The notes below the pieces were generated by a model, which was given only the letters and a program-made list of their open reading frames with translations, searched no databases and was not told the DNA's origin. Positions 713-21,014 of a stretch of 48,599 nucleotides of DNA are shown one piece after another. This stretch comes from a virus, in IMG/VR virus record IMGVR_UViG_3300020183_000129, positions 1 to 48,599 of that record; one strand, given 5' to 3'. Made by a program: the position numbers and the translations under genes. Positions within the stretch are counted from its first letter, which is position 1. Each line of letters starts with the position of its first letter.

Positions 713-974
713 CGAATATGCCGACACGCTCGAAGCGAAGCTGCGTTTCTTCGTCGGCATCTGCCTTGCGCTGACGCTGACCGGCACGATCTTCGCCGTG
801 CTCTATTCTTTGATCTTCGTGACGCAGCCGATGAACGGCAGCGCGCCGAACGACCAGAAGTTCTTCGAACTGATCCAGCCCATCGCGACATTCTTGACTG
901 GCACGTTGTCTGGCATCATGCTCGCCACACGTCGTGGCGCTGACAAGGGGAAGCCTGATGACACTCCTGAGTGA
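702..974 (+). CDS. Putative holin
   Basis: 90 aa with two hydrophobic segments (around residues 15-40 and 58-76), a short charged N-terminus and a basic/acidic tail. This is the usual topology of small two-span holins, which make the inner-membrane lesion that lets the endolysin out. The start overlaps the previous gene by 11 nt, with a GGGAGG sequence about 5 nt upstream. Its 3' end overlaps the endolysin start at 958. Position directly before a GH19 endolysin is the main support; the sequence itself only shows a small membrane protein. Confidence 0.65.
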   Translation: MRTDEYADTLEAKLRFFVGICLALTLTGTIFAVLYSLIFVTQPMNGSAPNDQKFFELIQPIATFLTGTLSGIMLATRRGADKGKPDDTPE

Positions 975-1875
975 GGCACAACTTGCCAAGATGATCCCGA
1001 CCAACAAGGAGGTCGCAGAGTGGTGCAAGACGCTCAATGACATGCTCCCGAAGTACGGGATCACCACGCCGCAGAGGATCGCCTCTTTCATCAGCCAATG
1101 CGCGCATGAAAGCGCGGACTTCAAATTGCTGGAGGAGAATCTCAACTACAGCAAGGAATCGCTGGAGCGCGTGTTCCCGAAGTACTTCGGTGCCAACAAG
1201 CGCAATGCGAACGAGTATGCTCGCAAGCCAGAGAAGATCGCGAACTACGTCTATATGGACGAGTTTCGTTCGAAGGGTGGTGCTCTTGGCAACGTCCAAG
1301 AGGGTGATGGCTGGCGCTTCCGTGGTCGTGGGCTGAAGCAAGTGACAGGCCGCTCCAACTATACTACCTTCGGCAAGGCCATTGGCAAAACAGCCGAAGA
1401 GGCTGCTGAGTATCTGACGACAAAGGAAGGTGCGCTTGTCTCTGCGCTTTGGTTTTGGGACAGTCGCAAGTTGAACGACGTGGCCGACACGGGTGATGTT
1501 GCCCGTGTCACCAAAATCATCAATGGGGGCGACATTGGCCTCGAAGATAGGAGAAAACGCTATGATGCGGCTCTTGCGATCCTTGCTGGGAAAGACGCCA
1601 CAGGGAATGGTGGTGGAAGCGGTGGCGGGCAAAGTTCTGGACAAGGTTCAGGACAAGGTGGAGGAAGCAGTGAAGGAAAAGGTGGAGGATCTCAAGTCCT
1701 CCGCGCTGGAAGCCGTGGCGCAGAAGTCGCCGCTCTCCAAAAAGCCCTCGGTATCACAGCCGACGGCAGCTTCGGCCCCGGCACCGAAAAAGCCCTCAAG
1801 CAGTGGCAGCAAGCCCAAGGCATGACGCCTGACGGTGTGGCTGGGCCGAAGACACTCTCCAAATTATTGGTTTGA
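958..1875 (+). CDS. Endolysin: GH19 (chitinase-like) muramidase with peptidoglycan-binding domain
   Basis: 305 aa. Residues about 1-210 form a GH19 lysozyme-like domain: the AHES motif supplies a catalytic glutamate at residue 51, followed by GRGLKQVTGRSNY, typical of phage GH19 endolysins. A Gly/Ser/Gln-rich stretch (about 213-243) links it to a C-terminal PG_binding_1 domain with the usual VAALQKALGI and TPDGVAGPKTL pattern. It cuts peptidoglycan at the end of infection after holin opening. No signal peptide is seen. ATG 958 is preferred over GTG 934 because AAGGGGAAG lies just upstream. The linker region also carries a second, overlapping frame (separate entry). Confidence 0.93.
   Translation: MTLLSEAQLAKMIPTNKEVAEWCKTLNDMLPKYGITTPQRIASFISQCAHESADFKLLEENLNYSKESLERVFPKYFGANKRNANEYARKPEKIANYVYMDEFRSKGGALGNVQEGDGWRFRGRGLKQVTGRSNYTTFGKAIGKTAEEAAEYLTTKEGALVSALWFWDSRKLNDVADTGDVARVTKIINGGDIGLEDRRKRYDAALAILAGKDATGNGGGSGGGQSSGQGSGQGGGSSEGKGGGSQVLRAGSRGAEVAALQKALGITADGSFGPGTEKALKQWQQAQGMTPDGVAGPKTLSKLLV
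1562..1825 (+). CDS. Candidate overprinted gene inside the endolysin gene (+1 frame)
   Basis: 87 aa in the +1 frame relative to the endolysin. ATG 1562 (a second ATG follows at 1565) has AGGAG at 1549-1553, eight bases upstream. The product starts MMRLLRSLLGKTPQG, continues as an amphipathic helix with repeated VxDKV/VxEKV spacing (about residues 16-45), then a Lys/Pro/Ser/Ala tail. The endolysin frame over the same bases is a Gly/Ser/Gln linker plus the start of its cell-wall binding domain. Either frame could be the passenger: Gly-rich codons produce Val/Glu/Ala codons when shifted by one, and the SD also encodes the DRRKRY segment of GH19. Function unknown; a membrane-surface helix is possible. 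Confidence 0.45.
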   Translation: MMRLLRSLLGKTPQGMVVEAVAGKVLDKVQDKVEEAVKEKVEDLKSSALEAVAQKSPLSKKPSVSQPTAASAPAPKKPSSSGSKPKA

Positions 1876-1878
1876 TCC

Positions 1879-3792
1879 ATGCCTCTAACCAAACTTCAGT
1901 TCCAGCCGGGTATCAACAAAGAGACCACCTCATACAGCAACGAGGGTGGTTGGTTCGACATGGACAAGATGCGCTTCCGCGCAGGCTTTCCAGAGAAGAT
2001 CGGCGGTTGGGTCAGGCTTGGACTGAAGTCGTTCTTGGGGACGTGCCGCGCTTTGCATGCGTGGCGAACGATCAACCTAGACAACTATCTGGGTCTCGGC
2101 ACGAACCTCAAGTACTACATCGAAGAGGGAGAGGGCTACTACGACATCACGCCGATCAGGGCTACGACCGCTGCTGGTGATGTGACCTTCGCGGCTACTG
2201 ACGGGTCTTCCGTTCTGACCGTATCGGACACGGCACATGGCGCTGTGGCTGGTGACTTCGTCACCTTCAGTGGTGCCGCCAGTCTTGGCGGCAACATCAC
2301 AGCCGCTATCCTCAATCAAGAGTACCAGATCGCCAGCATCGTCAACGGCAACTCATACACTATCGTGGCGCGCGCTGTGGGCACGGTGGCCGATATCACG
2401 GTCAATGGGCAGTACACGCCGACGCCTGTAGTCGCAAACGCTTCTGACAGTGGTGATGGTGGCGCTGCTGTGATCGGTGCCTATCAGATCAACACAGGTA
2501 TCAATACATCGATCTATGGCAACGGCTGGGGCGCGTCGTTCTGGGGCCGTGGCACTTGGGGTTCTGGCGCATCCATTAATGCGCTGACCGATACTCTGCG
2601 TGTCTGGACTCACGACAACTTCGGCGAAGATCTGATCATCAACGTGTATAACGGCGGTATATACTACTGGGATGCGTCATCAGGTTTGTCAACTCGGGCG
2701 GTTCCCTTAACAGCCTTGTCTGGTGCCAGCAATCCCCCCACAGTTGCGGCCAAGATCTCGGTCTCTGATGTGGACAGGCATGTTATCGCCTTTGGGTGCA
2801 ACCCGCTTGGCTCTTCTACCCAAGATCCTCTTCTCATTCGCTTCTCCGATCAGGAGAATGCAGCAGATTGGACGCCTACAACCACGAACACGGCGGGAGA
2901 TCTTCTGGTCGGCTCTGGCTCTCGGATCATCACTGCTGTTGAAACGCGCCAGCAGATACTCGTGTTCACGGACATCTCCGTCCACGCGATGCAGTATCTT
3001 GGGCCACCCTTCACTTTCGGCATCAACATGATGGCTGAAGGCACAACTATTGTTGGGCCGAATGCTGCGGTAGCCATAGACGACAGCGTTTACTGGATGG
3101 GGCAGACTGAGTTCTACATCTACAACGGTGCCGTGCAGAAACTTCCTTGCTCTGTCAGGGACTATGTCTTCTCAGACTTCAACACCAATCAGGTAGAGCA
3201 GGTGTTCTGCTCTGTGAACTCTTCGTTTGCTGAGATCTGGTGGTTCTATCCGTCTGCCAACAGCGACAACCTCGACAGGTACGTTGTCTACAACTACGAG
3301 CAGAACCTCTGGTACTATGGTTCGATGGCGCGCAGTGCGTGGATCGACCGTGGCGTTGTCGGGTTCCCGATAGCTGCTGGTCTGGATGGCTACCTCTACT
3401 ACCATGAGAACGGATTTGACGATGGCAGTACAAACCCTGCCTCGGCGATCAACGCCTACATCGAGTCCAGCCAGTTCGACATTGGCGATGGCAACAACTT
3501 CAGCTTTGTCAGCCGCATCATCCCTGACATCACCTTCAGGAACTCCAGTGCTGCATCGCCGTCAGTCATCTTCACGATGAAGGCACGAAACTTTCCGGGT
3601 GGTGCCTACCTTCAGGATGACGATGAGACCGTTACCAAGATTGCATCGACGCCAGTCGAGCAGTTCACCAATCAGGTGTACGTCAGGCTGCGTGGCAGGT
3701 CGATGGCGCTCAGGGTCGAGTCTTTGACGACAGGAATCGGATGGCGACTGGGCTCTCCGAGGATTGATATCAGGCAAGACGGTAGGCGCTGA
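1879..3792 (+). CDS. Tail/packaged-DNA stabilisation protein (P22 gp10-like)
   Basis: 637 aa. It begins MPLTKLQFQPGINKETT and is rich in beta-strand and aromatic residues throughout, with motifs such as NNEGGWFDMDK-like and GGWVRLG near the start, and repeated blade-like segments (YWDASSG, VYWMGQTEFYIYNG, YNYEQNLWYYG). This matches the propeller-type tail hub proteins related to P22 gp10 that close the portal after packaging. An inserted Ala/Thr/Val-rich stretch (about residues 95-200) looks like an extra beta domain. It starts 3 nt after the endolysin stop. Family placement rests on recognition of pattern and length, not on a computed match. Confidence 0.65.
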   Translation: MPLTKLQFQPGINKETTSYSNEGGWFDMDKMRFRAGFPEKIGGWVRLGLKSFLGTCRALHAWRTINLDNYLGLGTNLKYYIEEGEGYYDITPIRATTAAGDVTFAATDGSSVLTVSDTAHGAVAGDFVTFSGAASLGGNITAAILNQEYQIASIVNGNSYTIVARAVGTVADITVNGQYTPTPVVANASDSGDGGAAVIGAYQINTGINTSIYGNGWGASFWGRGTWGSGASINALTDTLRVWTHDNFGEDLIINVYNGGIYYWDASSGLSTRAVPLTALSGASNPPTVAAKISVSDVDRHVIAFGCNPLGSSTQDPLLIRFSDQENAADWTPTTTNTAGDLLVGSGSRIITAVETRQQILVFTDISVHAMQYLGPPFTFGINMMAEGTTIVGPNAAVAIDDSVYWMGQTEFYIYNGAVQKLPCSVRDYVFSDFNTNQVEQVFCSVNSSFAEIWWFYPSANSDNLDRYVVYNYEQNLWYYGSMARSAWIDRGVVGFPIAAGLDGYLYYHENGFDDGSTNPASAINAYIESSQFDIGDGNNFSFVSRIIPDITFRNSSAASPSVIFTMKARNFPGGAYLQDDDETVTKIASTPVEQFTNQVYVRLRGRSMALRVESLTTGIGWRLGSPRIDIRQDGRR

Positions 3793-4091
3793 TGTCAAAC
3801 AGGCTTGTACCAGCACCATACTTCCCGATCCCGCCGAAGGAGTACGACCAGCGGTACTTCAACGAGGTCATCCGAGCGTTCTCTCTGTATCTGGATCAGG
3901 CACGGAACCCCGGCGAGGGCAGGAATACCTTCACTGTCTTCACTGCGCTGCAGACGGACGATGTAGGGCTGGAGCCGGGGGCTATCTTTAACCACGGCGG
4001 ATATGTTAAAGTCAGCGAGACAAACACGCCGCACGTTCGTGGGTCATCTGGCACTGCATCAGTTGGCTCAGTCACAGTGATCACAACGTAG
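3792..4091 (+). CDS. Small conserved virion-associated protein
   Basis: 99 aa. ATG shares a base with the preceding TGA. The opening MSNRLVPAPYFPIPPKEYDQ followed by a helix (RYFNEVIRAFSLYLDQ) and a C-terminal beta-rich part is a layout I recognise from podovirus structural operons, where it sits beside the tail hub gene. No catalytic motif is visible. A small tail or connector component is the likely role, inferred from position. Confidence 0.6.
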   Translation: MSNRLVPAPYFPIPPKEYDQRYFNEVIRAFSLYLDQARNPGEGRNTFTVFTALQTDDVGLEPGAIFNHGGYVKVSETNTPHVRGSSGTASVGSVTVITT

Positions 4092-4106
4092 ACTGGAGAA
4101 CCAGAG

Positions 4107-5297
4107 ATGCGCCGTGGAGCGTCTAGCACAGACAAATCTTCTTCTGGTGGAAGCAGTAAGGGTGAAACTCCCAGCTTTAAAAGTTTGAAGGACGCGGCGG
4201 AGGCTGGGTATCATGGCAAGGCTGTGAACATTGAGGGCAAGGGCGTCCAGAAGGTTTCGTTTGCTGACAAGGCTTATGACAAGGCCATGGCGGCTAAGAG
4301 CGCCTCTGCGTCTTCCGCTGGTGGTGTGGGCGGCGGCGGCAACGCTGCTGCATCTACTCCAGACAAGGACAAACCCGGATTTCTTGAGGGCATCAAGAGT
4401 TTTGGTTCCGCGCTTGCCGCCGCTCCCGGTGCCATAGCCAGAGATCTGTCCATGGGCGCTACTGCACTCAAGGGAGGCTTTAGCTTTGAGGGGCAAAAGG
4501 CCGCTCTTGAAAAGGCTGGCTACACTCCGCAGCAGGCACAAGACTACATTGACAGAACCAAGGCGACCATAGCCAGAAACGAAGCTGAGGCAATTGCTGC
4601 GCAGCGGGACAAACCTGATCGCCCGTTTGATGCGGCACCCACATCGCCTACTGTGCCTGTTGCTCCTGAAGAGCAGATGCCTGTCTACCGCAGCCCTTTT
4701 GGGACTGCTCCGCCTATCGGCACAACCATGGCTCCTCCGGGCCCTGAGATCACACCTCAGATGCGTGCCGCTGCTCTCCAGATGTTCGAGTCTCAGCGTG
4801 GCGCTGGCCAGATCCCGTATCAGATGCTGCCGTATCAGCAGGGTATTGGAAGCATGCGTCGTCCCGGCTTTCTTCCCAGAGAACCCGACCCGTATGACGG
4901 CATGCGCAACATTGGCTTGCCAGTTGGTCAGCCTCGGATGCCCGGCATTCAGCCGATGCCGCAGCCCCGTATGCCGCAGCAAAACGTCAGCCCTGCATTC
5001 CAGTATGCTGCTCAGAACTACCAGCGTCTTGGCGGATCTCAGCGCCTGATGGATCGCCCTATGGAGATGATGAGCGCAGCCGAGCGTCAGCGCATCAATG
5101 AGATGAGCCGCGCCATGGCGGAACAGCAAGAGTACGATATGGGCCGTCGCATGATGGGGAAAGGCGGCGGCGTCGTCGAGCCTAGACTCCCGTTGCCTAG
5201 GGGCTTTGGTGATGATGTTGCGCCCGGTATGCGACCGCGCCCTGTTGGTGCTGGAATTGCGTCACTCCGGGGCCTTCCATCGTATCTCGTGAGGTAA
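4107..5297 (+). CDS. Low-complexity internal virion protein candidate
   Basis: 396 aa. The N-terminal third is Ser/Lys/Ala-rich with short helices; the central and C-terminal parts are Met/Pro/Gln/Arg-rich (many PRMP, MRP and QMLP runs), consistent with an unfolded, DNA-associated or ejected protein. AACCAGAG precedes the ATG and the next gene starts 4 nt after the stop. No known domain is recognised. It lies between the tail hub and other presumed ejection proteins, so packaging into the particle is the likeliest role. Confidence 0.6.
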   Translation: MRRGASSTDKSSSGGSSKGETPSFKSLKDAAEAGYHGKAVNIEGKGVQKVSFADKAYDKAMAAKSASASSAGGVGGGGNAAASTPDKDKPGFLEGIKSFGSALAAAPGAIARDLSMGATALKGGFSFEGQKAALEKAGYTPQQAQDYIDRTKATIARNEAEAIAAQRDKPDRPFDAAPTSPTVPVAPEEQMPVYRSPFGTAPPIGTTMAPPGPEITPQMRAAALQMFESQRGAGQIPYQMLPYQQGIGSMRRPGFLPREPDPYDGMRNIGLPVGQPRMPGIQPMPQPRMPQQNVSPAFQYAAQNYQRLGGSQRLMDRPMEMMSAAERQRINEMSRAMAEQQEYDMGRRMMGKGGGVVEPRLPLPRGFGDDVAPGMRPRPVGAGIASLRGLPSYLVR

Positions 5298-5301
5298 TCA
5301 C

Positions 5302-6456
5302 ATGCTGCCTCTTCTCTTCAGCGTCGGCCTTCCTGCTCTAGTTGGGTCTGGTGCCTTGGGTGCCGGAACATTCTTGGCTGGCCTGTCAGCACCTGCTCTG
5401 GCTGGCATTGGTGCTGGCCTTGGCTCCCTGCTACAGACGGGAGATCTTGGAGAGGGGATCAAGACCGGCCTAACCGGCTTCATCGGTGGGAAGCTTCTTG
5501 GCGGTCTGTCTGCAACTCCAAGCCAAGCTGCCGCGACAACTGCGACAACTACTGGAGTTGAGGCTGCAAGGCCGGGGTTCCTTCAGGCTGCTCTAGGGCC
5601 GAGCCCGTCCATCACCGAGGCGATGAAGACTGCTACGGCACCAAAGTTCCTTAGCACTTTTGCGCCGAATGCTGGCGCTGGGCTGACTGGCTTTGCCACA
5701 GCAGCAACGCTGCCGGGAGTTCTTCCTGCTGCGTTCATAGGTCAGAGCAGGGCTGACTACTCCAGCCAAATGAAGCGAGCGCGTGACGCTGAGGGAGAGG
5801 ACGAGGATACACGTCCCCCCATGCCGCGCCCCATGAGGAGGACGCTCAGTCAAGATCCGTACGCCACCAGCACTGGCGAGGGCCTGTACTTCCAGTACCA
5901 GAGGCCACCTGCTCCTCTGGGTTATGAGCCGCAGTACCCGTACTACTACCGTGGTGGTGGCATCATCGATCTTCGCCGCATGCAGGAAGGTGGTGAGGTC
6001 GCTACGCAACCTGAGATGCAAGCGCCTGATGCTGGCATGAACGAGAAGCAGGTAATCGTCGAGGCGATCAAGGCGATCAAGGGCGCATCCGACAATCCTG
6101 AGATCGCGCTTGGTATGTTCGTGCAGAAGTACGGCGAAGATGCGCTGCGTGATCTTGTCACCCGCGTTCAGTCTGGCGAGTTCGACCAGACGGTCGAAGA
6201 TAGCGAGGGCATGATCCGTGGGCCGGGTGACGGCATGGATGACATGGTGCCTGCGTCTGTCGAGGGAGAGCAGGACGTTCTTCTGGCCGACAACGAGTAT
6301 ATCGTGCCTGCGGATGTAGTGAGCGGCCTTGGCAATGGGTCGTCAGACGCTGGCGCTCGCGAGTTGGACAGGATGCTTGAGCGCGTCCGCATGGCTCGTA
6401 CGGGCACCACGCAGCAAGCGCCGCAGGTCAATGGTAGAGAGATGCTGCCGGTATGA
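5302..6456 (+). CDS. Internal virion protein with glycine-rich hydrophobic N-terminus
   Basis: 384 aa. Residues 1-75 are Gly/Ala/Leu-rich and hydrophobic (LPALVGSGALGAGTFLAGL), suited to membrane insertion during genome ejection. A central Pro/Tyr/Arg-rich linker follows. The C-terminal region (about 240-384) contains GPGDGMDDMVPASVEGEQD, DNEYIVPADVVSGLGNG and SSDAGARELDRMLERVR, a pattern I know from structural proteins of environmental podoviruses. Its stop overlaps the next ATG. Role as an ejected or head-internal protein is inferred from composition and place. Confidence 0.65.
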   Translation: MLPLLFSVGLPALVGSGALGAGTFLAGLSAPALAGIGAGLGSLLQTGDLGEGIKTGLTGFIGGKLLGGLSATPSQAAATTATTTGVEAARPGFLQAALGPSPSITEAMKTATAPKFLSTFAPNAGAGLTGFATAATLPGVLPAAFIGQSRADYSSQMKRARDAEGEDEDTRPPMPRPMRRTLSQDPYATSTGEGLYFQYQRPPAPLGYEPQYPYYYRGGGIIDLRRMQEGGEVATQPEMQAPDAGMNEKQVIVEAIKAIKGASDNPEIALGMFVQKYGEDALRDLVTRVQSGEFDQTVEDSEGMIRGPGDGMDDMVPASVEGEQDVLLADNEYIVPADVVSGLGNGSSDAGARELDRMLERVRMARTGTTQQAPQVNGREMLPV

Positions 6457-6878
6457 GGATCAGCCTTGTTCCGCATGAAGCGGTCGGTCTTGTGTGGAAA
6501 GATGTCGAGCGAGTGCTGGCCAGAAGTGTTGCGACCGTCAAGGATAGGTCAACGCTGATCGACATACTGGATGGTGTGTACGATGGGATATACGCGCTCT
6601 GGGTTGTTCTGGATGACGACAACAACATCGTTGCCGCTTTCACCACCAGAGTGATCGTGTACCCCAGACGCAGGGCGCTTGCCTTGGACTGGATCGGCGG
6701 ATCGAAGATGAGGGAATGGTCTGAGCAGCTAGTGGATGTGATGACCAAGTACGCCAAAGAATTGGACTGCCAGCACCTTGAGGGATATGGTAGAAAGGGC
6801 TGGTCTAGGTTCTTCGACAAGAGGCACGGTGTCTACCCAGAGTACACGGCCTACCGGATGGAGTTGAGCGATGGGTAA
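6453..6878 (+). CDS. Small acetyltransferase-like internal virion protein (T7 gp13-like)
   Basis: 141 aa, overlapping both neighbours by 4 and 8 nt (ATGA and ATGGGTAA). The pattern of beta strands (YALWVVLDDDNNIVAAFTTRV) followed by LALDWIGGSK and a helix, then LDCQHLEGYGRKGWSRFF, resembles the GNAT-like fold of T7 gp13-type internal virion proteins. The acetyl-CoA binding loop is not obvious, so enzymatic activity is doubtful. An assembly or ejection role is inferred from its place between two internal proteins. Confidence 0.6.
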   Translation: MRISLVPHEAVGLVWKDVERVLARSVATVKDRSTLIDILDGVYDGIYALWVVLDDDNNIVAAFTTRVIVYPRRRALALDWIGGSKMREWSEQLVDVMTKYAKELDCQHLEGYGRKGWSRFFDKRHGVYPEYTAYRMELSDG

Positions 6879-8262
6879 GGGCAGTCAGCAGGTTCCCACC
6901 GAAGGCACAGTGCGCCAGACGCAACTGCCCGAGTACGCCGATCCGTACTTCCGCAGGCTCCTTCAGGGTGCTGAAGAAGTCACCATGCCGTTTGACCCAA
7001 TGACGGGTCAGTCAACCTACATCCCGTATGGCGGTGAGCGCATCGCTCCGTCAAAAATGTACGGTGACATTCAAGCATCCCGTGCCATGGTCAGGGGCAT
7101 TGCAGAGCAAGGCATCCCCGGCATGAAGGAGGCCATGGGTGCCCAGCGCGAGGGCATGGATATCACGCGCCGTGGTGTTGGCTACACCGATGAAGGCATC
7201 GGTCGTCTTCGTGGTCTGTCGGATTACAAGACTGGAGAATTCACTCCGTTCGGAGAGTTCCAGCAGTACGACTTCCGCGATCCGTTTCAGTTCTCCCAGT
7301 ACGGGTTCCGCCCGGACTTCCAGTTCCAGCAGGCACAGTTCCGCGAACCTGAGAGGTTCGCTGGTGCGCAGGTTCAGGAATATATGTCGCCCTACATGCA
7401 GTCTGTTGTTGAACAGCAGCAGCGTCAGGCGCAGTTGGAGTTCGAGCGTCAGGGCGCAGCGCGCGCAGCACAGGCTGTACAGGCTGGCGCTTTCGGCGGG
7501 TCTCGTCAGGCGGTGCAAGAGGCTCTGGCTGAAGAGGCTCTCGGTCGCCAGATGGGTGACATTCAGGCGCGTGGGTCGCAGGCTGCATTCGAGCAAGCGA
7601 CACAACAGTTCGGCGCTGATCGTGCGGCTCGGATGGCGGTTGATCAGGCTCGTGCCGCTGAACTCGCTCGTGTGCAATCGTCCGCTGCTGCGGAGCAGGC
7701 GCGTGTTGATCAGGCCCGCTATACTGAACTCGCCAACCGTGAGCAGGCGCAGGCTGCTGAGTTCGCCCGCGCGGGCAATGTAGAAGCCGCCGAGGCAGCG
7801 CGCGTTCAGGCTGCGCGTTATGACGACTTGGCGCGCCGTCAATCCGCTGTCGAGCAGTCCCGGCAGTTCGGTGCCAGTCAGGCTCTTGCAGCAGAGCAGG
7901 CAGCAATCGCTGCCGCAGGTCAGATGGGGACAATGGCACAAGGGCTTGGGTCTCTTGGTCAGTCGCTGGCTGGCCTTGGTGAACGTCAGCGTGCTGCCGA
8001 CATTCAGGGGGCACAGCTTCTTGAGACCATAGGTCGTGACATCAGGGCTGAGGATCAGGCCCGCCTTGATCTTGCCTATGAGGACTTCCTGCGTCAGCGC
8101 GACTATCCGATCCAGCAGTATGAGCGGATGGCTGGCATTCTGCGTGGTGTGCCTGTCTCGCCGAGTGTGGAAGAAACGCGCTTTGCGTCGTACAATCCGA
8201 CTGCACAAGCACTAGGTGCAGGCCTCTCTGCACTTGGACTGTATAAGGGTCTTTCGTCATGA
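6871..8262 (+). CDS. Coiled-coil internal/ejection protein
   Basis: 463 aa. A proline- and aromatic-containing N-terminal part with repeated FQ-rich segments (residues about 120-165: EFQQYDFRDPFQFSQYGFRP) leads into a long Ala/Gln/Arg/Glu helix region (about 170-350) with heptad-like spacing, then a Gly/Ala-rich C-terminus (ALGAGLSALGLYKGL). Such proteins in podoviruses are packed in the head and leave with the DNA. The Ala/Gln helices contain imperfect repeats (AAELARVQ, ARYTELANR, ARYDDLARR). ATGA overlap with the next gene. Confidence 0.65.
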   Translation: MGKGSQQVPTEGTVRQTQLPEYADPYFRRLLQGAEEVTMPFDPMTGQSTYIPYGGERIAPSKMYGDIQASRAMVRGIAEQGIPGMKEAMGAQREGMDITRRGVGYTDEGIGRLRGLSDYKTGEFTPFGEFQQYDFRDPFQFSQYGFRPDFQFQQAQFREPERFAGAQVQEYMSPYMQSVVEQQQRQAQLEFERQGAARAAQAVQAGAFGGSRQAVQEALAEEALGRQMGDIQARGSQAAFEQATQQFGADRAARMAVDQARAAELARVQSSAAAEQARVDQARYTELANREQAQAAEFARAGNVEAAEAARVQAARYDDLARRQSAVEQSRQFGASQALAAEQAAIAAAGQMGTMAQGLGSLGQSLAGLGERQRAADIQGAQLLETIGRDIRAEDQARLDLAYEDFLRQRDYPIQQYERMAGILRGVPVSPSVEETRFASYNPTAQALGAGLSALGLYKGLSS

Positions 8263-9752
8263 ACATCATCGATCTTCAGGATAGGCTGAAAGACTTCCCT
8301 GAGCAGGCGCTGATGCAGGAGATGCAGGCCCCGTCAGGGATGGCACCTCAGTTTCTTGTGCTGAGTGAACTCAAGCGCCGCAAGCGGATGCGCGATGACT
8401 ATCAGCGTACGCAAGCAGCCGACATGAAGACCGTTGCTGAAGAGGCCATCACTGGCGCTGGTGTGCCGCAGGCGGGCATCATGCAGATGGCTGGTGCGAT
8501 GGCACCCAACACGAACGTCGCTCAGGACACGGGCATCAACGATGCCATGGAGCGCACACCGACGCAGGCACCCCAGCCGCAGGGCATCATGAGCATGGCC
8601 CGTGGCGGGTATGTGAAGAAGATGCAGGAGGGGAGGCTTGCTGGCGCACCTCAGACTGTTGTCGTTGACGGAAGGCAGTACCTTGTTTCTCCTGATGGAT
8701 CGGTGACGTCCGCTCTTGGGGAGCCTGTGTCATTCGCCGAAGCTGAAAGAGCAAAGGTTGCTGCAAGCGGCCAACCAGTTTTGGGCGGTATGGGTGATGT
8801 CAGCACTGACCTTGCTGACTTCGACGCTACGCAAGAAGTCCCTCTTGGAGAGGGTGATGCCGCTCGTCTGCTTGAGGGCATTGGTGTTGGCAAAAATGCT
8901 GACATTCCCGTTGTTCAGCCGCCTCCTAAAAAGAGGGTTCAAGGCATCCCACCGGATGCGACAGGAGTTGGCGGATTTTTTGCTGACATCGCGAAAGCCG
9001 TGCAGAACCCCGCAGGCGGCGGTCTCGGGCCTCGTCGTGGCTCAGGGACGGAAGCTACAGAACCTGTTACGAAAGTGGATCTTGGAGAAATAACAGTTTC
9101 TCCTGAACCAGAAATTCCTATCTCAATGCCCTTCGGCGACCTTAGTGCTCTGACTGCTGAACAACCTGCTGCTCCTGTTCCTGAAGCCCCAACTACTCCC
9201 GATGGTGGCGGTGGTGCTGGTGGCGGTGGTGCTGGTGGCGCTGGTGGTGTCGGTGGCTTCGGCCCCATCGAAAGCCGCATTGCGCAGATGCTTCAGGAGC
9301 GTGAGCAGTCTGCTGCCGCTGATAAGTGGATGGCTCTTGCACAGACTGGTCTTGCATTGATGTCCTCTCGCCAGCCCACTCTCGGTGGTGCCATTGGCGA
9401 AGCTGGCCTTGCAGGCATCGGTGCCATGCGTCAGGCTCGTAGTCAGTACGACAAGGACGTGCTTGGTCTGCTTGAGATGCAGGCTGGCATCCAGAGGGCT
9501 AAGGCCTCTGGTACTCGCACTGCCGCCCCAAAAGCCACCAGCCCTTCAGAAATCAACGCGGCACTTGATTATCTATCTGGCGTTGCTGATCGGCAAGCTA
9601 CGGTTGTTTCTGTGAACGAACTTGGGCAGGAAGTTACCACTAAGGACTATAGTCGCGTGTCCCCAGCCGTGGCGTCACAAATAAAACAGCTAGAAGACCA
9701 GTACATGGCTCTTTTAAGAGGCGGGTCTGTTGATCTAAACCTTGTGCAGTAG
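8259..9752 (+). CDS. Structural protein with glycine-rich linker and C-terminal helices
   Basis: 497 aa. It opens MNIIDLQDRLKDFPEQAL, then PSGMAPQFLVLSELKRRKRM, a signature I recognise from environmental podovirus structural proteins placed just before the giant protein. The middle is Pro/Gly-rich with a run of GGGGAGGGG type (about residues 310-330). The C-terminus is helical (QMLQEREQSAAADKWMALA; GLLEMQAGIQRAKASG). No enzymatic motif. Coupled to the upstream gene by ATGA; AGGAAG precedes the next ATG, 14 nt on. Confidence 0.6.
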   Translation: MNIIDLQDRLKDFPEQALMQEMQAPSGMAPQFLVLSELKRRKRMRDDYQRTQAADMKTVAEEAITGAGVPQAGIMQMAGAMAPNTNVAQDTGINDAMERTPTQAPQPQGIMSMARGGYVKKMQEGRLAGAPQTVVVDGRQYLVSPDGSVTSALGEPVSFAEAERAKVAASGQPVLGGMGDVSTDLADFDATQEVPLGEGDAARLLEGIGVGKNADIPVVQPPPKKRVQGIPPDATGVGGFFADIAKAVQNPAGGGLGPRRGSGTEATEPVTKVDLGEITVSPEPEIPISMPFGDLSALTAEQPAAPVPEAPTTPDGGGGAGGGGAGGAGGVGGFGPIESRIAQMLQEREQSAAADKWMALAQTGLALMSSRQPTLGGAIGEAGLAGIGAMRQARSQYDKDVLGLLEMQAGIQRAKASGTRTAAPKATSPSEINAALDYLSGVADRQATVVSVNELGQEVTTKDYSRVSPAVASQIKQLEDQYMALLRGGSVDLNLVQ

Positions 9753-9766
9753 TCTGAGGAAGTGCC

Positions 9767-12700
9767 ATGGCTATCATACAAGTTCAGGGTCAACGCTCAG
9801 GTAGGCCCTACTCTATCAACATAGCTGGAAGCACCCCGACTCCAGAAGAACAGGAAAAAATCAATCAGTTTGTCTCCCAACGAGAGGCAGAGTTTGAGAG
9901 TTTTTTCGCCGAAAGATTTGGCACCCCTCAAGTTGAGGCACCTGTCGAGGCCCCGCCAGAAGACGATGGCACTGCCATTGGCCGTGGCTTTCGCCGTGGT
10001 ATCCAGACCGTCAAGTCTCTCACTGGCACGGCGGTCGAAGAGGCTGGGCGTGGCCTTGGCTTCGAGGGTGTGCAAGAGTTTGGCCGTGGCATGGAGACTG
10101 CGGCAGAAGAAGAACTGCGCAGGCTTCAGGAGATCCGGGCACGCACTGGCCTCTATGACGTAGAGGGCGTGAGTAGTGCTCTCACCTACGGCGGTGAAAC
10201 GTTTGGCGAGCAGGGCCCCATCTTAGGCATGACACTTGCTGGCGCTGGCGCTGGCTTTGCTCTTGCAGGCCCTCCGGGCGCTCTGGCGGGTGGTGCTCTT
10301 GCTTCGTTCCCCTTGCTGTTTGGCGGCAACGTCCAGCGTCAGGAAGAGCAGGTAGCTGCTGGAGAACTGGACAAGGTTAGCGTTGAGCGTGCCCTGTACA
10401 CGGCTATCCCACAAGCTGCGCTCGAAGGTATCGCTGGTCGCATCCTCGCTCTTGCCCCGTTGCGCCCCGGCGTTGGCAGCATATGGGCTAGGACTGCCAA
10501 GGGTGGTGCCCTAGGTACTGCGGCAGAGGTGCCGACCGAGATCACCCAGCAACTGCTGGAGAGGGCACAGGCTGGCCTTCCCATCGACGACGACGAGGCC
10601 ATCAGGGAATACATCGAAGCTGGTGTTGCCGCTGCAATTGTCGGTGCCCCTGTCGGTGGTATCGGCGGCGCGATCCAGAAGGACGCGGCACAGGACGAAC
10701 TCGATCAGGACTACAAGGAACTGGCGCTTGAGGGGTCGCGTCGTTTCCGTTTCGCAGAGGAGACGGAGCAACAGATCGAAGCAGAGCGGCAGAAGGCCAT
10801 GGCAGCGGCTGGGATCGACCCAGACGCGCCTCTCGGCCTTGAGGCACCTCAGCAGCGGCTTGGCCTACCTGCGCCTGAGAGCGTGGATGTAGCGCCTGAG
10901 ACGGCCATTACCGACGCAGAGTTCGAGAACCGCACCTTCGACCGCGCTCAGTACGAGCGCGTTCTCCAGCAGATCAAGGCTGACATCACCAGCGACAAGC
11001 CGATCAATGTTGCCGCTATCCATCAGCGTGTAAAGTCCGACCTCCCCGGCATCAAGGTGGCACAGGTCAAGGACGTGCTGACGGAACTGCAAGCGCGTGG
11101 GTTCATTGCAGAGAACCCTGTGCCGAAGAAACAGAAGTACATCCCCATGGGTGCTTTGGCACCCGAGGTGAAGACGCCTGATGTCTCGTACCGCCGCCAG
11201 ATCGACACTGCGACTGACTTCATCAAGGCGGATCAGTCGCGCATAGAGCGGCTGAACTACGACCTGCAATCGGCTGAAGCTTATGGTCGGGATCTGGACG
11301 GCAACCGTGTTACGCCCAACCAGATCAACGCAGAGATCGCCAAGGTCGAGCAGAGAATAGCGGACAATCAACGGCGCATCGACGTAGCGCAGCAGAGACT
11401 GCAAACCCTCGGGCAGGACATGCATGTGCCCCGCTTTGAACGGGTGGGTCTGCCGCGTAATCTCAAGGCTGTGCCCATCCCAGAGGCCGCACCTGACGCT
11501 CTTCGCCCGCGCTTTGAGGCGCAACAGCAGGCGATTACCGGGTACAAGGAGCAGCTTGCTTCCGTCAAACGGCAAATCGTCAAGCTTAACGAGCAGGCGA
11601 AGAAACGGCAGCTAAGTTCAAACGAACTTAACCGCATGCAGAAGCTTCAGCAGTCGCAGGGCGAAATATCGACGCGGCTTGCTGAGGCACAGGCAAACCT
11701 CAAGACGCCTGAGAAGATTGTTCAGGAGGCGAAGGGCGAGCAGTTTCGTGAACAAGAACGTCAACGTGAGATTGAGCGTAAACTTGCTGCGGCGCAGGCT
11801 CGTGCAGCGGCTGATCAGGTCAAGGCTCAAGAAGATCAGGGAGTGTCCCCGCTCTCTGATCGTTTCAATGCGAAGCAGGATGCTGTTTTCAAGCGGCTTC
11901 AGGGGCGACTGAGCAACCTTGGCCTGAAGGGCGTCAAGCTTGATCGTCGTCAGAAGATCGATGGCGCTGAGGGTTCGTTCGATCCGCTGACGCGAGTGTT
12001 GACACTTGCCATGGGTCTATACAACCCGAACCTTTCTGAGCAACAGTTGTTCAATGCCATTGCGGAGGTGATGGATCACGAGATTATCCACGCGCTGAAG
12101 GCTCTTGGGGCACTAAGCCCGAAAGAGTTCTCCATGCTGGAGAAGGCGGCAGGAAAGACGCGCTATGTCAAGCTGACCAACGACGGTGTGCAGAAGCGGT
12201 CTTACACCTACCTCGACCGCGCCAAGAAACTGTACCCTGACCTGAACGAGACACAGCAGAAGGAAGAGGCAGTAGCGGAGATGTTCCGCGACTACGTCGC
12301 TGGACGACTGAAGATCGGTGGCGGGCCTCGTGCTTTCCTTGAGAAGATCAAGAAGTTCTTCAAGGCGCTGGTCGGTGCCAATGTGGACGAGGGCTTCACC
12401 AGCGTTCAAGACATCTTCAACAACATCAGCGTCGGCAGGATCGGGGAGCGTGTTGCTCCTGCTGCCGCTCCTGCTGCCGCTGCACAACCTGCCTTGTCTC
12501 GTGTTCCGGTGACAGAAGAGGACGTGTCTCCTCTTCAGGACATCCGCATGCCGATCAATCCGAACCTGCCCAACGATCAGGTTCGCGCTCAGATCCAGCA
12601 ACTGACGAACCAGAACAGACCGATTGTCAGGCAACTGATCTCCCGCATCGATCAGCGTTTTGGTGCCAAGTCTGGTGACAGTGTCAAAGACCTGTCGAAG

Positions 12701-15700
12701 GTGACGCAGAAGGCCAAGCGCCCGTCTATCTTGGCGACTAAGCCGTGGCACGATGTCTCCCATATTCGCGACAGCTATCGCTTCAAGACTGTCATCGATG
12801 ACTTCAGGGATGTGCCTGCCATCTTCAACGAGTTGCTGGATCAAGGCATCCAGCTTGTGAAGATCGACACCAACAAGCTGTTCAATCCAAAGGAGTGGGG
12901 ATGGCGCATCATTGCGTTCGATATGCGCATGCCAAACGGACAGCTTGTCGAATGGTATCTGCCGCTCAAGGAACTGGAGGCAGAGAAGAAAGCGCGCGGC
13001 CACCTGATCTTCGAGGAGTGGCGCAACAAGACGGAAAACGAACTTGAAGCGCAACAGGTCGAGTTCTTCGACGCGATGGGTCGCAGCTATGATGGCTACG
13101 ATCAGGCGTTTCAGGCGGCACTAGACCGTATCGGTCTGTCGCGTCAGGAGGCTGAAGCTTCTTGGAGCAGCGCAGAGAGTTCCATCTCTGATGCTGCGCG
13201 GAATGCGCGCAGGTCGTCCACCGTGGGGATCTCGGAGCCCTTGAGTGTGCCGACGCGCTTGATGACGCCGTCCATGGTGCGCACTGACTTGGAGCCGTCA
13301 GCAGCAAAGATGATGGCCCGCGAGGTTCCGTCCTCTACGAGCGCGAAAGCTTCTGCCATTGTATCTACCTCTGATGATTACATGCCTGACGCACCTGCTG
13401 AGGAGCGTCCTCTCTTCTCTAGGATACCACGTTCGCAGCTTGCGGCAAGCTTGGCGAACTTCATCAGGAACAACCCTGATGGGTTCACGGTCAGGCCCAC
13501 TACGCTTGAGCCTATGTCTGGTGGGTTCGTCGTCGCACCGCTGAAGGAAGCGGAGATTATCGTTGGTGAGTCCCTGCCCGAAGAAGTTCTATTGGGCTAT
13601 ATCGAGGACAACAAGGACATCTCCCGTGCGATAGGCAGGCCGGTCTACCTTGGCGGCTGGTTCGACAACGAATCGAAGCAGTACTTCTTGGACAACACAC
13701 TCATTCTGCCCAATGCGGAGGATGCGCTCTACATCGCGGAGGCGGCTGATCAACTCGCCATCTTCGACCTCAACAACTTTCAGGAGATCAGGACAAATGA
13801 AGGAATCAGACGCCTCAGAGAAAGTGGATCTTATCGAGGTTACACCGCAGACGGATACAAGAGAAGCCTTGAGGCAGTTGGTCGCCGCTTTAGAGAAGCA
13901 AGGGATGCGCGTCGTGCCCGCCTCGAAAGGCAGCTTGTTGGGCAAGTAAAGCGCCCGCTTGAGTCGCGTCTGGTTCTGCCCCTCTCCAATGAGGAGAGGG
14001 CTGCAAGCATCATTGACTACCTGAACCCGAACACTGGACAGCCTCTCTTCAGGAAGAAGGCGGGGTCTGAGACGCTCGTCAGCTTTGCCAACAAGCTTCT
14101 GGAACTGCGGGGCACACGGCCATACGACATCATCAACTCCCAAGAAGACAGGGAGACGGTGGCCAACATCATGGCCGCAGAGGCTGAGGCGGCACTCCTG
14201 TCAAGCAGTGATGCCATCGGTTGGTATGGCGACATCCTCAATCTTGCCAAGCAAATCCTCTACCCTGTCTACCCCGAGGTATCTCGCACTCGCCCTGATG
14301 GCAGTGCCAATCCTTCCTATGACCCCGCTGCCGAACATGCGTTCGACTACGTCACCGCTGTGACGTCGAATGGTCTGGCTGTCATCGACAACTATCAGTT
14401 TGCTGCGTCCAAGTATGATGCGTGGAAGGCAAGCCCTGACGGGAAGTTTCCCGTGGAGGGCAAGGGCGATCAGGGCAAATCGATGATCGCTGCGTTCGAG
14501 TTCTGGAACCATCTGGTCGATCTCGGCTACGACTCGAATGCCATCTCCGAACTGCTTTCTCAGCAGATGCCTAGGTCAGAGTTGAATAGCATCCTGAAGG
14601 ATGTGTTTGGCGTTTCAAGGATCGCCGATCTTCCGATCAAGGCCGACACGAAGGAAGAAGCGGACACGGTTGTGTCTCTAGCCTATGTTATCGGGCCGAA
14701 GATCGGGAACGGATTCTATCAGAACCTGCGCGGTAACTTTGACCCTCTGACGATGGATCGTTGGTGGATGCGGTTCGTCAATCGCATCACTGGCAAACCG
14801 ACTGTCGTTTACTCGGAAGAGAACCTCGGCAAGAACTTCGAAACTGTCTGGAACTACGTCCGAAATCCAAGCCGTCTTTCCGACATGGAGCGTGCCATCC
14901 TGCGTCGTGCGCAGGAGAACCTGAACATGATTTCCATGGAGAAGGCGGATGTGCCTCTCCTCTCAAAGGAGATGGACAAGGTCTGGAACAAGGACTTCTT
15001 CAACAAGGCGTACAACGACAAGCTTCGCGATCTCCTCAATGAGGGCAACGACTTCAGGATCGTGGGAAGTTCTGTCGTCGGCCCTTATGCCAACACAGCC
15101 AAGAAGCTTGCCAGAGGCGCGCGCCCTGAAAAGCCTGCCATGGCCAAGGCAGTGACGACGCTTGTCAAGAAGATGAAGCCGTCTCTTCAGGAGGCACCAC
15201 GCAGCGCGAAAGACCGCACTGCCATGCGTGCCTCTGCCAACATGGCGCGCCAGATACTGCGTGACAATCTTGGCGTTCAACTGACCAATGCCGACTTCCA
15301 AGCACTGATGTGGTACGCAGAGAAGCGCATCTTTGAAGCGGGAGGTGTGCGCAAGGGACGTGGAGAAGACAACGATTACGCGGATGGTGCCATCGCCATC
15401 CTCAAGTCGAAAGGAATGTCTGATGAGCAAATCAAAAATACACTCCCCGAGGCAGAACGAGGACGAGTCGATAGTGTCGAGTCTGACATCAGAGGAGAAC
15501 AAGAGGCTGGCGGCAGCGTTGGCGAACTGGCACGAGGCCCGCAAGAAGGGGACTTCTTCGCCCCAAGAAGTCTGAACCTCGTACCCGAACAGCAGTCCAT
15601 TCAGGCTGGTATGACGCCTGAAGAGGTGATCGAGATTGAGGCACCTCTGGCTGGCCTTGAGATCGACCCTGAGATGCCGAGGCAGATGTATTCGCGCGTT

Positions 15701-18700
15701 CCTGTAACGCAGGCATACATGCCTGTGCGCGCGCCAGTGGACATGAAGGACGGGTCGCCCAACCCCATCTACGGATCGATCAGAGATGGCGCTCGTCTCC
15801 TGCCTGTTGTGCTGCCCAAAGGATCGCACGTTGTCTACGACAATGGTATCGAGGCTGGGAACGGGCTGTTCCACATCCAGCAGCGCAAGCATGACTTGGA
15901 ACTGTTCGAGAACTCCAAGTACAAGCGTGTCGAGAACGCGATCTACGACCTGATGCGGCGTTGGCAGACGCAGGGCTACGATGATGGCAACGACGTCATC
16001 TCCTACCCGAGCGGGGGCAACCTTGTTCTGGAGTGGCGCGAGAACATCGGCTTCGGCGCGCCGCCACTAACGCTCGTTCTGGAGCGTGGCACCGACGTGC
16101 GCAACGCGCCGGTCAAGGAAGCTTACTACGTCAAGACCTTCTATCCAGTGCTAGAGAAGAAGGACAGAACGACGCAGGTGCAGCGTGGCCGCAACTTCAT
16201 CAACATGGACAAGGGAGACAGCAGGCGCAGGTTTAGCCGCCTTTTGTCCAGCACTGCACCGACGCAGGGCACGCCGCAGTTTGGCCCGTCAGATCTTGAG
16301 ACCGTCATGCAGAACCTGCGCTACACTGGCGTGCAGGAGAAGGTGGCGAACGTCTTCAAGAAGATCGGCAAGCCCTTCAAGGCTGACGAGAAGGCCATCG
16401 AGGACGGCACTCAGTGGGTGTTCAACAAGCTTCAAGACAACTTCGTCTCAGTCGGCAAGATGTACGACGCACTGCGCAAGCAGGGTGCCAACATCACCAG
16501 AGACATGGATGCCTACTTCCAAGAACTGCTGATGCACGGCGTGGCTGGAGCAAAGAAAGAACGCTTCAAGACCAATGAGTTCACGCCCATTGTTGAACAA
16601 GTTGCGCGCCTCAATGTGACTGACGTGGAGAGGGACGCGCTCAAGCGCGTGTCGAACTACTACGGCCAGATCCTAGAGAAGACAGGCAGCAAGTCCCACG
16701 CTCTGGCGAACGCCTATCTCTATGCACTACATGCAGTGGAACGGAACCGGCGCATCAGCGAACTGTCCAAGGGTCAGATCTCCAACGGCTCTGGCATGTC
16801 TGATCAGGAAGCGCAGAACATCATCTCCTTTGTGAACAGCATGGATGCCACACGTCGCAATCAGGTGGTCGCCATTGCTGATGGCGTGCGCTCGATGGTT
16901 GATGGCACCAATGATGTCTACATCGATGGCGGTCTGATCCCTGACTACAAAGATGGCGTGGACGTAGACGACGAGACCAAGGCGGCGTTCACCAAGTACA
17001 AGAACTATGTGCCGCTGCGTGGCTTCGCAGACCCAGAGAGCGAACTCGATACCACAGCCGGTGACTTCTCGACGACCAACCGCTTCGGCGCTCTTGGCAA
17101 GCCGAACAAGACGGCGCTCGGTCGGGAGTCCTACGCTGGCGACATCCTCGCCAATGTGGCTGTGCAGAGAGAGAACGCCATCGACAAGGCGGAGAAGAAC
17201 AAGGTCGGCGTTGCGTTCCTGAACCTGCTTGAGAGCAACATAGACACCGACGCCTATGCAGAAGTGCTGGAGCGTCATCCCTTGCGCCGTGTCATGCGCA
17301 ATGGCCGCATCACGGTCATGCCTGACAGGGACTTCAACGATCCGAACCTGCCGATCCTCGCTGTGCGCAAGGATGGTGAGGAGGTGCTGATTGGTTTCAA
17401 AGACCCGCGCCTTGCCACTGCATTCAAGGGCACATCAGGCAAGCAGATGAATGCCATCATGGGTGGTCTGCATACGATCACCCGCTTCTACGCCAACCTG
17501 CTGACAAGCTGGAACCCTGCCTTCCTTCTGTCCAACCTGCCGCGCGACATCGAGACAGCACTCTTCAACGCACAGCAGTACAACATGGAGGGATCTTCGA
17601 AGGACATCCTCAAGGGCGTTGCTCCTTCCATGAGGGCGATCCTGCGTGTTCTGAACAACAAGCCGGGTGCCAATCCTTACTGGGCTAACCGATACAAGCA
17701 GTTCTACGACAACGGCGGCCAGAACGTCCTCAACCAGATGGGGGATGTGGTCAACAACTCGAAGGACATCCGCAACACGATCAGCAAGATCGTGGCGGCA
17801 GACAATGCTGGCAACCGACGCCTCATGGATACGCTGTGGAACGGCACCAAGAAGGGCGGTGGTTCCCTGCTCAACTACATCGAGGCTGTGAACACGGCTG
17901 TGGAGAACGCCACCCGTGTGGCTTTCTTCGATGCTGTGGTGCGCAATCTGGAAGCGCAGGGTGTGCCGACAGAGAGGGCTGTGAGAGAGGCTGCTGCCGC
18001 AGCACGGCAGCTTACCACGAACTTTGGCAAGGGCGGAGAGATGAAGGCGGGGCTGAACACGCTCTACCTCTTCTTCAACGCATCGCTGCAAGGTTCGATG
18101 GCGATGTTCAACTCGCTCATCAACAACTCCAAGGCGCGCAAGCTGGTGGCGACTGTGGTCGTTGCTGGCTTCATGCAGGACATGATCAACGGCCTGATCT
18201 CTGGCGATGAGGACGAGGATGGCATCAAGGACTACGACAATCTGAGCGACTACAAGCTGGCTCACAGCATCGTCCTGCCCGATCTGAATGGCGACGGCAC
18301 CTTCATCACCATCCCGTTGGCCTACGGCATCAACATGTTCTACAACTTCGGTCGCGTCATGGGTAACTTGGCCCGTGGTGCGATGGGCGACAACGGCACC
18401 TACACGCCGGAAGAAGCGGCGTCCTCGACGATGGGCACTGTGTCGGAGACGTTCAATCCGTTTGGCGGCAACAACTTCTGGACGTTCCTGTCGCCCACGC
18501 AACTCGACATGCCCATCGAGTTGATGACCAACCAGAACTTCATGAACCAGCCGATCTACAAGGAGTTGTCGCCATTCGAGCAGTACAAGTCCCGCAGCGG
18601 CATGTACTGGTCAACGACAAGCCCGAGTGCGATCTGGATCTCGAAGTTCATCAACGACACTATTGGCAGGGGAACCGACATCGTGCCGGGTGAGGTGCTT

Positions 18701-19207: not shown

Positions 19208-19670
19208 GGCGAGGAAACCAGCGAACGTCAAAGATGTAACTGTCTTTGGCGTTCCCTGATCCGTCGTCGCCTCTGTACTTGTACTTGTGCAACTGAACTT
19301 TTCCAGAGCGCACCAGCAACTCCAGCCTGTTCATGTCAGTCCAGTGCGTTGCCCGATAGTCTGGGTACTGCACGTCGAAGATGATGATGATGTTGGGGTA
19401 TAGTGCGTGGTACCTGCGCAGGTCTTTTCTGTTTATGGATATGGCGTAAGACGGGGGGATGCCGAACATATCCTGAGAGTACATCCACGGCGTGGTGATA
19501 GTCTTCAGGTCGCACGGCATCTCTATCCGCATGTCATAGGTGAAGACGTCATCCGACTTGTCGGGGTTGATCTTCAGCTTGACATCGCGGAAGCTTCGCT
19601 CTTGGACGAAGATGTCCTCAAGCTTTCTCCCCTCTTCGCACCAAGCAGGCTTGTCGTTTGGATCAAGCAT
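19197..19670 (-). CDS. PD-(D/E)XK nuclease-like protein
   Basis: 157 aa, last gene of the leftward early cluster, converging on the giant gene with an 11-nt overlap. The core FTYDMRIEMPCDLKTITTP, then AISINRKDLRRYHALYPNI and IIIFDVQYPDY, fits a restriction-endonuclease-like fold, with DLK as the possible (D/E)xK and an upstream acidic residue. The ATG lies within the stop region of the HTH gene (GCAATGCTTGA). Function as a DNA-cleaving or recombination enzyme is inference from motif spacing only. Confidence 0.6.
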   Translation of the reverse strand: MLDPNDKPAWCEEGRKLEDIFVQERSFRDVKLKINPDKSDDVFTYDMRIEMPCDLKTITTPWMYSQDMFGIPPSYAISINRKDLRRYHALYPNIIIIFDVQYPDYRATHWTDMNRLELLVRSGKVQLHKYKYRGDDGSGNAKDSYIFDVRWFPRLRC

Positions 19671-19830
19671 TGCTCTTTGAGTCCAGCCACTGGATGATCT
19701 CAGAGTATCTCCAGCGCGTCATCCTCTCGCCAAACTTAATCGGCTTGGGGAAGGTCTCGTCCTCCGCTGCGATCTGCCGAAGCGTCCTCGGGTGGATCGC
19801 CATCAGATTGGCAACGGCATCAGCGTTCAT
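19663..19830 (-). CDS. AlpA/excisionase-like HTH DNA-binding protein
   Basis: 55 aa. ATG 19830 overlaps the upstream TGA (ATGA), which favours it over an in-frame GTG at 19845. The sequence NADAVANLMAIHPRTLRQIA is a MerR/AlpA-type helix-turn-helix, followed by the wing-like FPKPIKFGERMTRWRYSEI and ending WLDSKS, the usual pattern of small excisionase or AlpA regulators. It could regulate early genes or act as a recombination directionality factor, but no integrase is visible in the window. Confidence 0.75.
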   Translation of the reverse strand: MNADAVANLMAIHPRTLRQIAAEDETFPKPIKFGERMTRWRYSEIIQWLDSKSNA

Positions 19831-20276
19831 CAGCTTCTCTTCCACTGACGAAACTCCTCTCTCAGTGTATCGAACTTCTGCCGTGCGTCCGGGTCATTGC
19901 GGAAGTCCGCACGGGACTTGATGCCGCAGTAATCCCTGACCGCATTGATGGCGTCAGTCTCCATGGTTGAAGGGTTGGTGTTGGTGATCAGCCCTGCTTC
20001 GTAGAGGTAGCGACCGAACTCCTTGTTGCGGCACAGAAGACCAGCGGACGCGATCATGCGCTCGACCCTCTGGTGTTCCTCTCGTGTCTCCGGTTCGTCC
20101 TGATCGTTGAGGCGAACCATGGCGACCATGTATCGAGTGCCCACCCAGTCGGTGTGGAGTTCTGGCGGGCAATCGTTGGGGTGTACATTCAGCCTCAGCA
20201 CTACGCCGTTCCTGTCTTGGGACATCGAGACCTTGACGGCCTCAAAGCCCATCGCTGCGTCTCTCATGCTTTCCAT
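19830..20276 (-). CDS. Conserved hypothetical early protein
   Basis: 148 aa from ATG 20276 (GGGAG upstream); ATGs at 20267 and 20252 are alternatives, the last removing most of the overlap with the upstream HNH gene. Beta-rich N-terminal half (VVLRLNVHPNDCPPELH, GTRYMVAMVRL) and a helical C-terminal half (YCGIKSRADFRNDPDARQKF). I recognise no domain. Coupled to the HTH gene by ATGA. It belongs to the early DNA-metabolism cluster. Confidence 0.65.
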   Translation of the reverse strand: MESMRDAAMGFEAVKVSMSQDRNGVVLRLNVHPNDCPPELHTDWVGTRYMVAMVRLNDQDEPETREEHQRVERMIASAGLLCRNKEFGRYLYEAGLITNTNPSTMETDAINAVRDYCGIKSRADFRNDPDARQKFDTLREEFRQWKRS

Positions 20277-20553
20277 CAAGGTATGTCTCCCAGTTCTGTT
20301 TGGCCCACTCGATGGCATCTATGCCTTGCAAGTCCCACCAAGTTTGCTCGTCTCCGAAGTGATGCAGTTCCATGTGGCAGCGGTGGCAGAGAGGCACGGC
20401 CCAGTTGTCTCCCGTCTTGTAGCCTATGCCTCTTTGCTCCGCTCTTTGCAGGTGGTGCGCTTCTCCTTCTGCCTTGCAGACCAAGCAGGGCGCGCCCCGT
20501 AAGGTCTTCAGGTAGGCCTCATCCCGAGCCTTGTCGTGCTTCGGGATCAGCAT
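20242..20553 (-). CDS. DUF968/YbcO-like HNH-type nuclease
   Basis: 103 aa. Cys/His pattern CLVC ... AHHLQRA ... PLCHRCHMELHH followed by WWDLQGIDAIEWAKQNWE is characteristic of the DUF968/YbcO group of phage metal-dependent nucleases that act in recombination or resolution. The first pair and the CHRC pair probably bind zinc, with AHH as the catalytic beta-beta-alpha-metal histidine. It overlaps the next leftward gene by 35 nt. Confidence 0.82.
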   Translation of the reverse strand: MLIPKHDKARDEAYLKTLRGAPCLVCKAEGEAHHLQRAEQRGIGYKTGDNWAVPLCHRCHMELHHFGDEQTWWDLQGIDAIEWAKQNWETYLDGKHERRSDGL

Positions 20554-20555
20554 TC

Positions 20556-21014
20556 TCAGAACCTATGTTTTTCAACGTGGCATGCGGGGCAAAGCCATTC
20601 GACATCTAGCGGCCTTGAGTAGTCACTGTGATGGCCGTGGATGATGCCACCTTTCCCACAGCAACTGCACACATCAGGCTTCACAACTTCACCTTTTCTT
20701 ATTCTGTTGCCCAAAATTATATGGGCTGCACGTTTTTCTAGGTTCCGTTCTACCCACCTTAGCCTCGTCTCCTGTATTGATTTTTTCCCATTTTCTGTTT
20801 TTTGATATCTCCTGTGCCTTTCACGAACTTTTGGGTCTGTCTGAAAGCGATCCCTATCGTACTGACGATAGTAGTCAGCGTGCAGTGTCCTGTTTTCCTT
20901 CGTGTCACGTTTCGCACATTCCTTGCACTTGTTTAGGAATCCGTCTTTCATTTGACTGTGCTTGTAGAACTCAGTGAGGGGCTTGCTGGCCCCACACTTA
21001 AAGCAAGTTTTCAT
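20556..21014 (-). CDS. Zinc-binding HNH-like endonuclease, possibly a mobile homing type
   Basis: 152 aa. An N-terminal CxxC pair (KTCFKCGASKPLTEFYK ... NKCKECAK), a basic helical middle, and a C-terminal CSCCGKGGIIHGHHSDY with CPACHVEKH form two zinc sites around an HNH-like core. The coding sequence is visibly richer in A and T than its neighbours, and such free-standing genes are commonly mobile endonucleases in phages. AGGAGG precedes the ATG. Whether it still cuts DNA cannot be told. Confidence 0.75.
   Translation of the reverse strand: MKTCFKCGASKPLTEFYKHSQMKDGFLNKCKECAKRDTKENRTLHADYYRQYDRDRFQTDPKVRERHRRYQKTENGKKSIQETRLRWVERNLEKRAAHIILGNRIRKGEVVKPDVCSCCGKGGIIHGHHSDYSRPLDVEWLCPACHVEKHRF

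Follow-up and report, generated by a model that had tools for sequence, protein, structure and literature searches.

Four short reading frames nested in two longer genes of a phage are, judged by comparison with relatives, genuine overlapping genes and presumably expressed. The source DNA is the IMG/VR phage record IMGVR_UViG_3300020183_000129, and the whole stretch that was analysed, 48.6 kb (48,599 nt), is called the window. Three of the four genes are embedded in a single gene for a giant virion protein. Each of these very probably forms the 3' tail of an exchangeable domain cassette, in which a domain and a nested gene stay together: D1 with AS, D2 with B, and D3 with C. The most far-reaching reading proposed here, to which a probability of about 0.4 is given, is that effector domains of polyvalent proteins are dual-coding cassettes, with an immunity protein or partner encoded in a different frame or on the opposite strand of the same DNA. 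D1 and AS would then be a virion-borne effector of the RelA/SpoT type and its antisense-encoded immunity protein.

The four frames, three in +1 and one antisense, had been described in an earlier note on this DNA, and they are present as described. The endolysin gene (934-1875, plus strand; phrog_181 endolysin by family-library match, GH19-like, with a C-terminal PG_binding_1 domain) is the host of gene A (1562-1825, plus strand). Gene A encodes 87 aa in the +1 frame relative to the endolysin and lies over a Gly/Ser linker and the start of PG_binding_1. Its Shine-Dalgarno site, AGGAG (1549-1553, plus strand), is kept in seven phages. The giant is encoded by a 9.4-kb gene (9767-19207, plus strand) and has 3146 residues. 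The LPD38 domain at the C terminus of this large multidomain protein (E 4e-29) identifies it as a phage polyvalent protein. Domain D1, a predicted RelA/SpoT-like synthetase, occupies residues 950-1120 (12614-13126, plus strand). Gene AS, of 71 aa, is encoded antisense over the 3' tail of the D1 cassette (13144-13359, minus strand), and its Shine-Dalgarno site (13367-13372, minus strand) reads AGAGGT here and GGAGGT or AAGGAGTT in relatives. Domain D2 (residues 1205-1340; 13379-13786, plus strand) has at its 3' end gene B, 50 aa in +1 relative to the giant (13797-13949, plus strand), with the Shine-Dalgarno site AGGAG (13782-13786, plus strand) at a spacing of 10 nt. Domain D3 (residues 1405-1875; 13979-15391, plus strand) has at its 3' end gene C, also 50 aa and in +1 (15423-15575, plus strand), and the Shine-Dalgarno site of C (15410-15416, plus strand) is AAAGGAA here and AAAGGTG/A in relatives. 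The giant also contains an HEIIH motif (12077-12091), the signature of zincin-type metallopeptidases, which are thought to process polyvalent proteins (PMC5512222).

Homologues of B, C and AS were found in the same frame in about 20-30 giants each among the IMG/VR relatives of the giant. The ATG, the Shine-Dalgarno site, the stop and the length are conserved in the homologues of all four nested frames. An in-frame stop is often found 1-8 codons upstream of the nested ATG in relatives, which indicates independent initiation rather than frameshifting. The +1 phase of all three same-strand genes would suit programmed frameshift extensions of the host proteins, but this explanation, in which the frames are not separate genes, is contradicted by the invariant ATG with its Shine-Dalgarno site and by the stops just upstream in many relatives. 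It is impossible for AS and is given almost no weight.

Conservation of the nested frames was compared with a permutation null in which codon pairs are resampled within amino-acid-pair classes, so that the host protein and the synonymous divergence are kept. Among relatives, conservation lies above this null by z=4.7-7.6 for B, by z=2.5-7.5 for C where C is kept, and by z=2.4-4.8 for AS in every carrier, the phase of AS being one in which third positions face each other and conservation is thus partly forced. Third-position variation across the whole giant gene is lowest in the two 49-codon windows that correspond to B and C. When its windows are ranked phase by phase, AS comes first among 582, and the two highest peaks in a set of 589 are those of B and C. 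Unbiased scans of the 9.4-kb gene single out just AS, B and C. The overlapping genes thus combine a start and a stop conserved in relatives with purifying selection that acts on the nested frame over and above the selection on the host frame.

Six other frames of the giant led by Shine-Dalgarno sites served as negative controls; they mostly contain stops in relatives and give no consistent signal. Elsewhere in the window the search for extra nested genes gave isolated signals in single relatives, none of them recurrent. At 9977-10096 the +2 frame is conserved against the relative L091 only; this segment has no ATG-started frame and perhaps reflects synonymous constraint, for example an RNA signal.

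The count of such frames in one genome is not in excess. In the codon-shuffle control that the earlier note had proposed, the 4 frames led by Shine-Dalgarno sites compare with 2.1+-1.4 (P=0.17). Such a control could therefore not reveal the genes, and only comparison decides. The count and the partly forced conservation of AS would both agree with chance, that is, with open reading frames led by Shine-Dalgarno sites in GC-rich genes or with conservation of the host protein mirrored in another frame. Chance is nevertheless hardly credible, as the permutation tests keep the host protein, codon-position variability is shifted at B and C, and the control frames fail. For B and C it is refuted by codon-pair resampling together with third-position variation.

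Homologues of A in the same frame occur in six other endolysins and are 82-93% identical. When the relatives are compared over the endolysin linker, the A frame is 79-94% identical and the linker itself 56-76%. Synonymous codons of the endolysin are 91-99% identical across the A region versus 67-80% over the entire gene, and the other-frame conservation of A is significant at P<=5e-4 under a permutation null that keeps the endolysin protein. Because the A frame is better conserved than the overlying linker, and endolysins without A have shorter linkers, the linker is plausibly a by-product of A.

The nested genes of the giant are strictly linked to their domains. Across about 40 giants, AS occurs wherever D1 is present and nowhere else, and the same holds for B and D2 and for C and D3, with no exception when truncated contigs are allowed for. 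The whole D1+AS segment has been swapped between close relatives (L094 with L120, and L111 with L114). Searching with D1 recovered 57 loci. Their identity to D1 falls as low as 35%, their host proteins range from 497 to >2,800 residues, and in 55 of them an antisense open reading frame, suitably placed by a permissive geometric criterion, is found at the 3' end of D1. An AS profile built from near carriers only had its top six-frame hit at the expected place in 17 of 19 distant D1 loci. In one locus, L244, the sense protein stops 24 nt past D1 and all three sense frames are closed. AS was recovered there by a leave-one-out profile (E 2e-9) and lies mostly beyond the sense gene, a position that argues against chance mirroring of the host protein. 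L222 (4001-4767) was considered as a free-standing AS and dropped, since the same sense frame is open past its stop. That locus has a single in-frame sense stop just past D1, with the frame open through AS; either the gene is split there or the stop arose by a recent nonsense change.

The D2 search gave 54 loci, down to 33% identity. In 52 of them an ATG-started +1 frame showing the B pattern stands at the end of D2, as compared with 2 of the 2101 control slots taken from these genes; many of these loci are near-duplicates, and the distinct B sequences number about 30. B is missing from 2 of the 54 D2 loci. L298 and L299 (4001-5677) carry two D2 homologues (33%) in 751-aa proteins without B and are natural controls. 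In L117 and L090, differing domains are inserted in the giant directly past B, and the insert of L117 is related to the D1-position segment of L090. No relatives of the giant or of D1 were found in GTDB genomes. If the nested genes move, they are carried along when whole domains are exchanged.

The earlier note had suggested that the linkers of long genes may be landing pads for new or mobile small genes. It was correct in that the nested genes are real, are hidden from annotation and sit at domain junctions. A overlies a Gly/Ser linker, and the sense products of B and C are in the lowest 4% of the predicted foldability of the giant; the sense product of AS is not, being at the 72nd percentile. 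Neutral linkers that tolerate small genes arriving or arising independently would account for the junction position of all four genes and for the disordered appearance of the sense products of B and C, and disordered stretches are known to accommodate overlaps more readily (review PMC8227390). This origin is nonetheless improbable. The linkage to one upstream domain is strict across many host proteins, and the linker over A is less conserved than the nested frame. That linkers are a by-product of the nested genes is suggested also by L244, where most of AS is outside the sense gene. In phage records, free-standing copies of A, B and C were not found, and no copy of AS was found apart from its domain. 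A Vibrio phage match to B (E=1) was rejected, as it lies in the frame of an ordinary gene, and no credible relatives of A, B, C or AS emerged from the phage records. Nor is the generalization to long virion genes established: Vibrio phage giants (27% identical) are without these nested genes.

D1 is here called RSH-like, that is, resembling alarmone synthetases of the toxSAS kind. It is not called a member of the RSH family because it falls below the Pfam curated cut-off for RelA_SpoT (PF04607) and a direct RelA_SpoT search of phage records gave nothing. The resemblance comes from profile comparison. The top three PDB matches of a diverse D1 profile are GTP pyrophosphokinases (E 0.0012, 0.0024 and 0.0025). 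When the same diverse D1 set was compared with a profile of RelA and small synthetases, the alignment covered 111 columns and kept the core motifs in register (P 1.2e-4, probability 55%; P 0.73 for the reversed control), whereas a narrower first D1 profile had put the probability of RSH at only about 5%. More D1 members touch RelA_SpoT (PF04607) than any other Pfam family; 5 of 21 match it, with a best E of 0.011. In the core alignment to RSH, the Asp of DxxxxR, PK..G, VE and one His are aligned and are invariant or nearly so. The departures from the RSH core are the Tyr of PKxxGY, which is replaced by Trp, and the His after GYRS, which is not kept. Phage polyvalent proteins are known to include RelA/SpoT domains (PMC5512222). 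No function of D2 was recognisable in the searches.

The best of five structure models of AS has a pLDDT of 83, and the others have 55-62. In Foldseek this model matched 6ox6_B first, weakly, with E 0.23. In VIA-align 6ox6_B was again first, also a weak match, with Z 4.1 over 61 of 71 residues and the next match at 2.9. A fold search with AS in viral models gave nothing under E 0.1. In 6OX6 the RelA/SpoT-type toxin Tas1 is bound to Tis1, its immunity protein (PMC11782079), and chain B was taken as Tis1 by its size. Tis1-like domains neutralise toxSAS enzymes that make (pp)pApp (PMC11782079). The 6ox6 match was seen before D1 was suspected to be of the RSH kind, and the two leads are thus not mutually blind; the later PDB and Pfam profile searches are independent.

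AS is genetically linked to an RSH-like, putative effector domain. Since D1 is RSH-like and the fold predicted for AS is closest to a component of the Tas1-Tis1 complex, the two are proposed to be effector and immunity protein. From the model and by analogy, AS may be the immunity protein of D1, at odds only slightly short of even. The extension to B, C and A, as cognate partners of the domains that they adjoin, is put forward more tentatively.

The small genes might also be real and unrelated to the adjoining domains, as old overprinted accessory genes, serving in host take-over or counter-defence, which accompany the domains only because the DNA is shared. This alternative is a serious one, held somewhat below an even chance. 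Physical overlap or proximity alone would yield cosegregation, and B and C are without detectable relatives of known function: family libraries gave nothing significant for AS, B or C, and the model of B is a single helix (mean pLDDT 70) and is not informative. Against it, the linkage is always to the upstream domain, down to 33-40% domain identity and in different host proteins, and the resemblances of AS and D1 point to one known toxin-immunity pair.

In the preferred reading, the nested product would most likely be the cognate partner of its upstream domain. A, B and C would be translated by internal initiation on late mRNA. AS would need antisense transcription, perhaps by read-through from the leftward genes at 19197-23046 or from a local promoter; a promoter for AS was looked for and none was found. 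The leftward gene block at 19197-23046 is convergent with the giant gene and meets it at its 3' end, is arranged likewise in Vibrio relatives, and is a possible source of antisense transcripts. D1 would be a synthetase borne by a virion protein, and AS, made from the opposite strand, would protect the producing cell, as Tis1 does for Tas1. The phage would make the virion-borne synthetase inside the very cell that it is using, and protection would be needed until packaging. Because effector and immunity would share the same DNA, recombination could not easily part them.

The putative pair resembles the toxSAS systems Tas1-Tis1 and FaRel-AT2FaRel (PMC11782079) in that a RelA/SpoT-type domain stands beside a small protein, with the predicted AS fold closest, weakly, to the immunity partner of 6OX6. 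Unlike in these systems, the AS gene runs antisense within the reading frame of its putative effector, D1 is part of a giant phage protein, and neutralisation is proposed only. The giant resembles known phage polyvalent proteins (PMC5512222) in its large multidomain build, in having LPD38 and a RelA/SpoT-like domain, and in its domain shuffling; the paper on those proteins (PMC5512222) was not found to mention overlapping frames. Fully embedded genes in another frame are exemplified by phiX174 gene E in gene D (PMC8227390), and genes embedded on the other strand by the antisense overlapping genes of E. coli O157:H7 (PMC9927249, PMC7103648). In contrast to both, three genes are nested here in one gene, each is tied to one domain, and they are conserved over a wide divergence of domains and host proteins. 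Several conserved genes can thus hide in one annotated phage gene, where ordinary gene callers and single-genome tests miss them. With each giant-nested gene tied to one domain, its unknown microprotein becomes a partner that can be tested. If AS is indeed the immunity protein of D1, an effector-immunity pair would be encoded on opposite strands of the same DNA.

In the giant gene of Vibrio phage K249 (L176), weak conservation of an antisense frame is seen at nt 2659-2781 from the start, with z 4.0-4.4 in three comparisons of Vibrio relatives.
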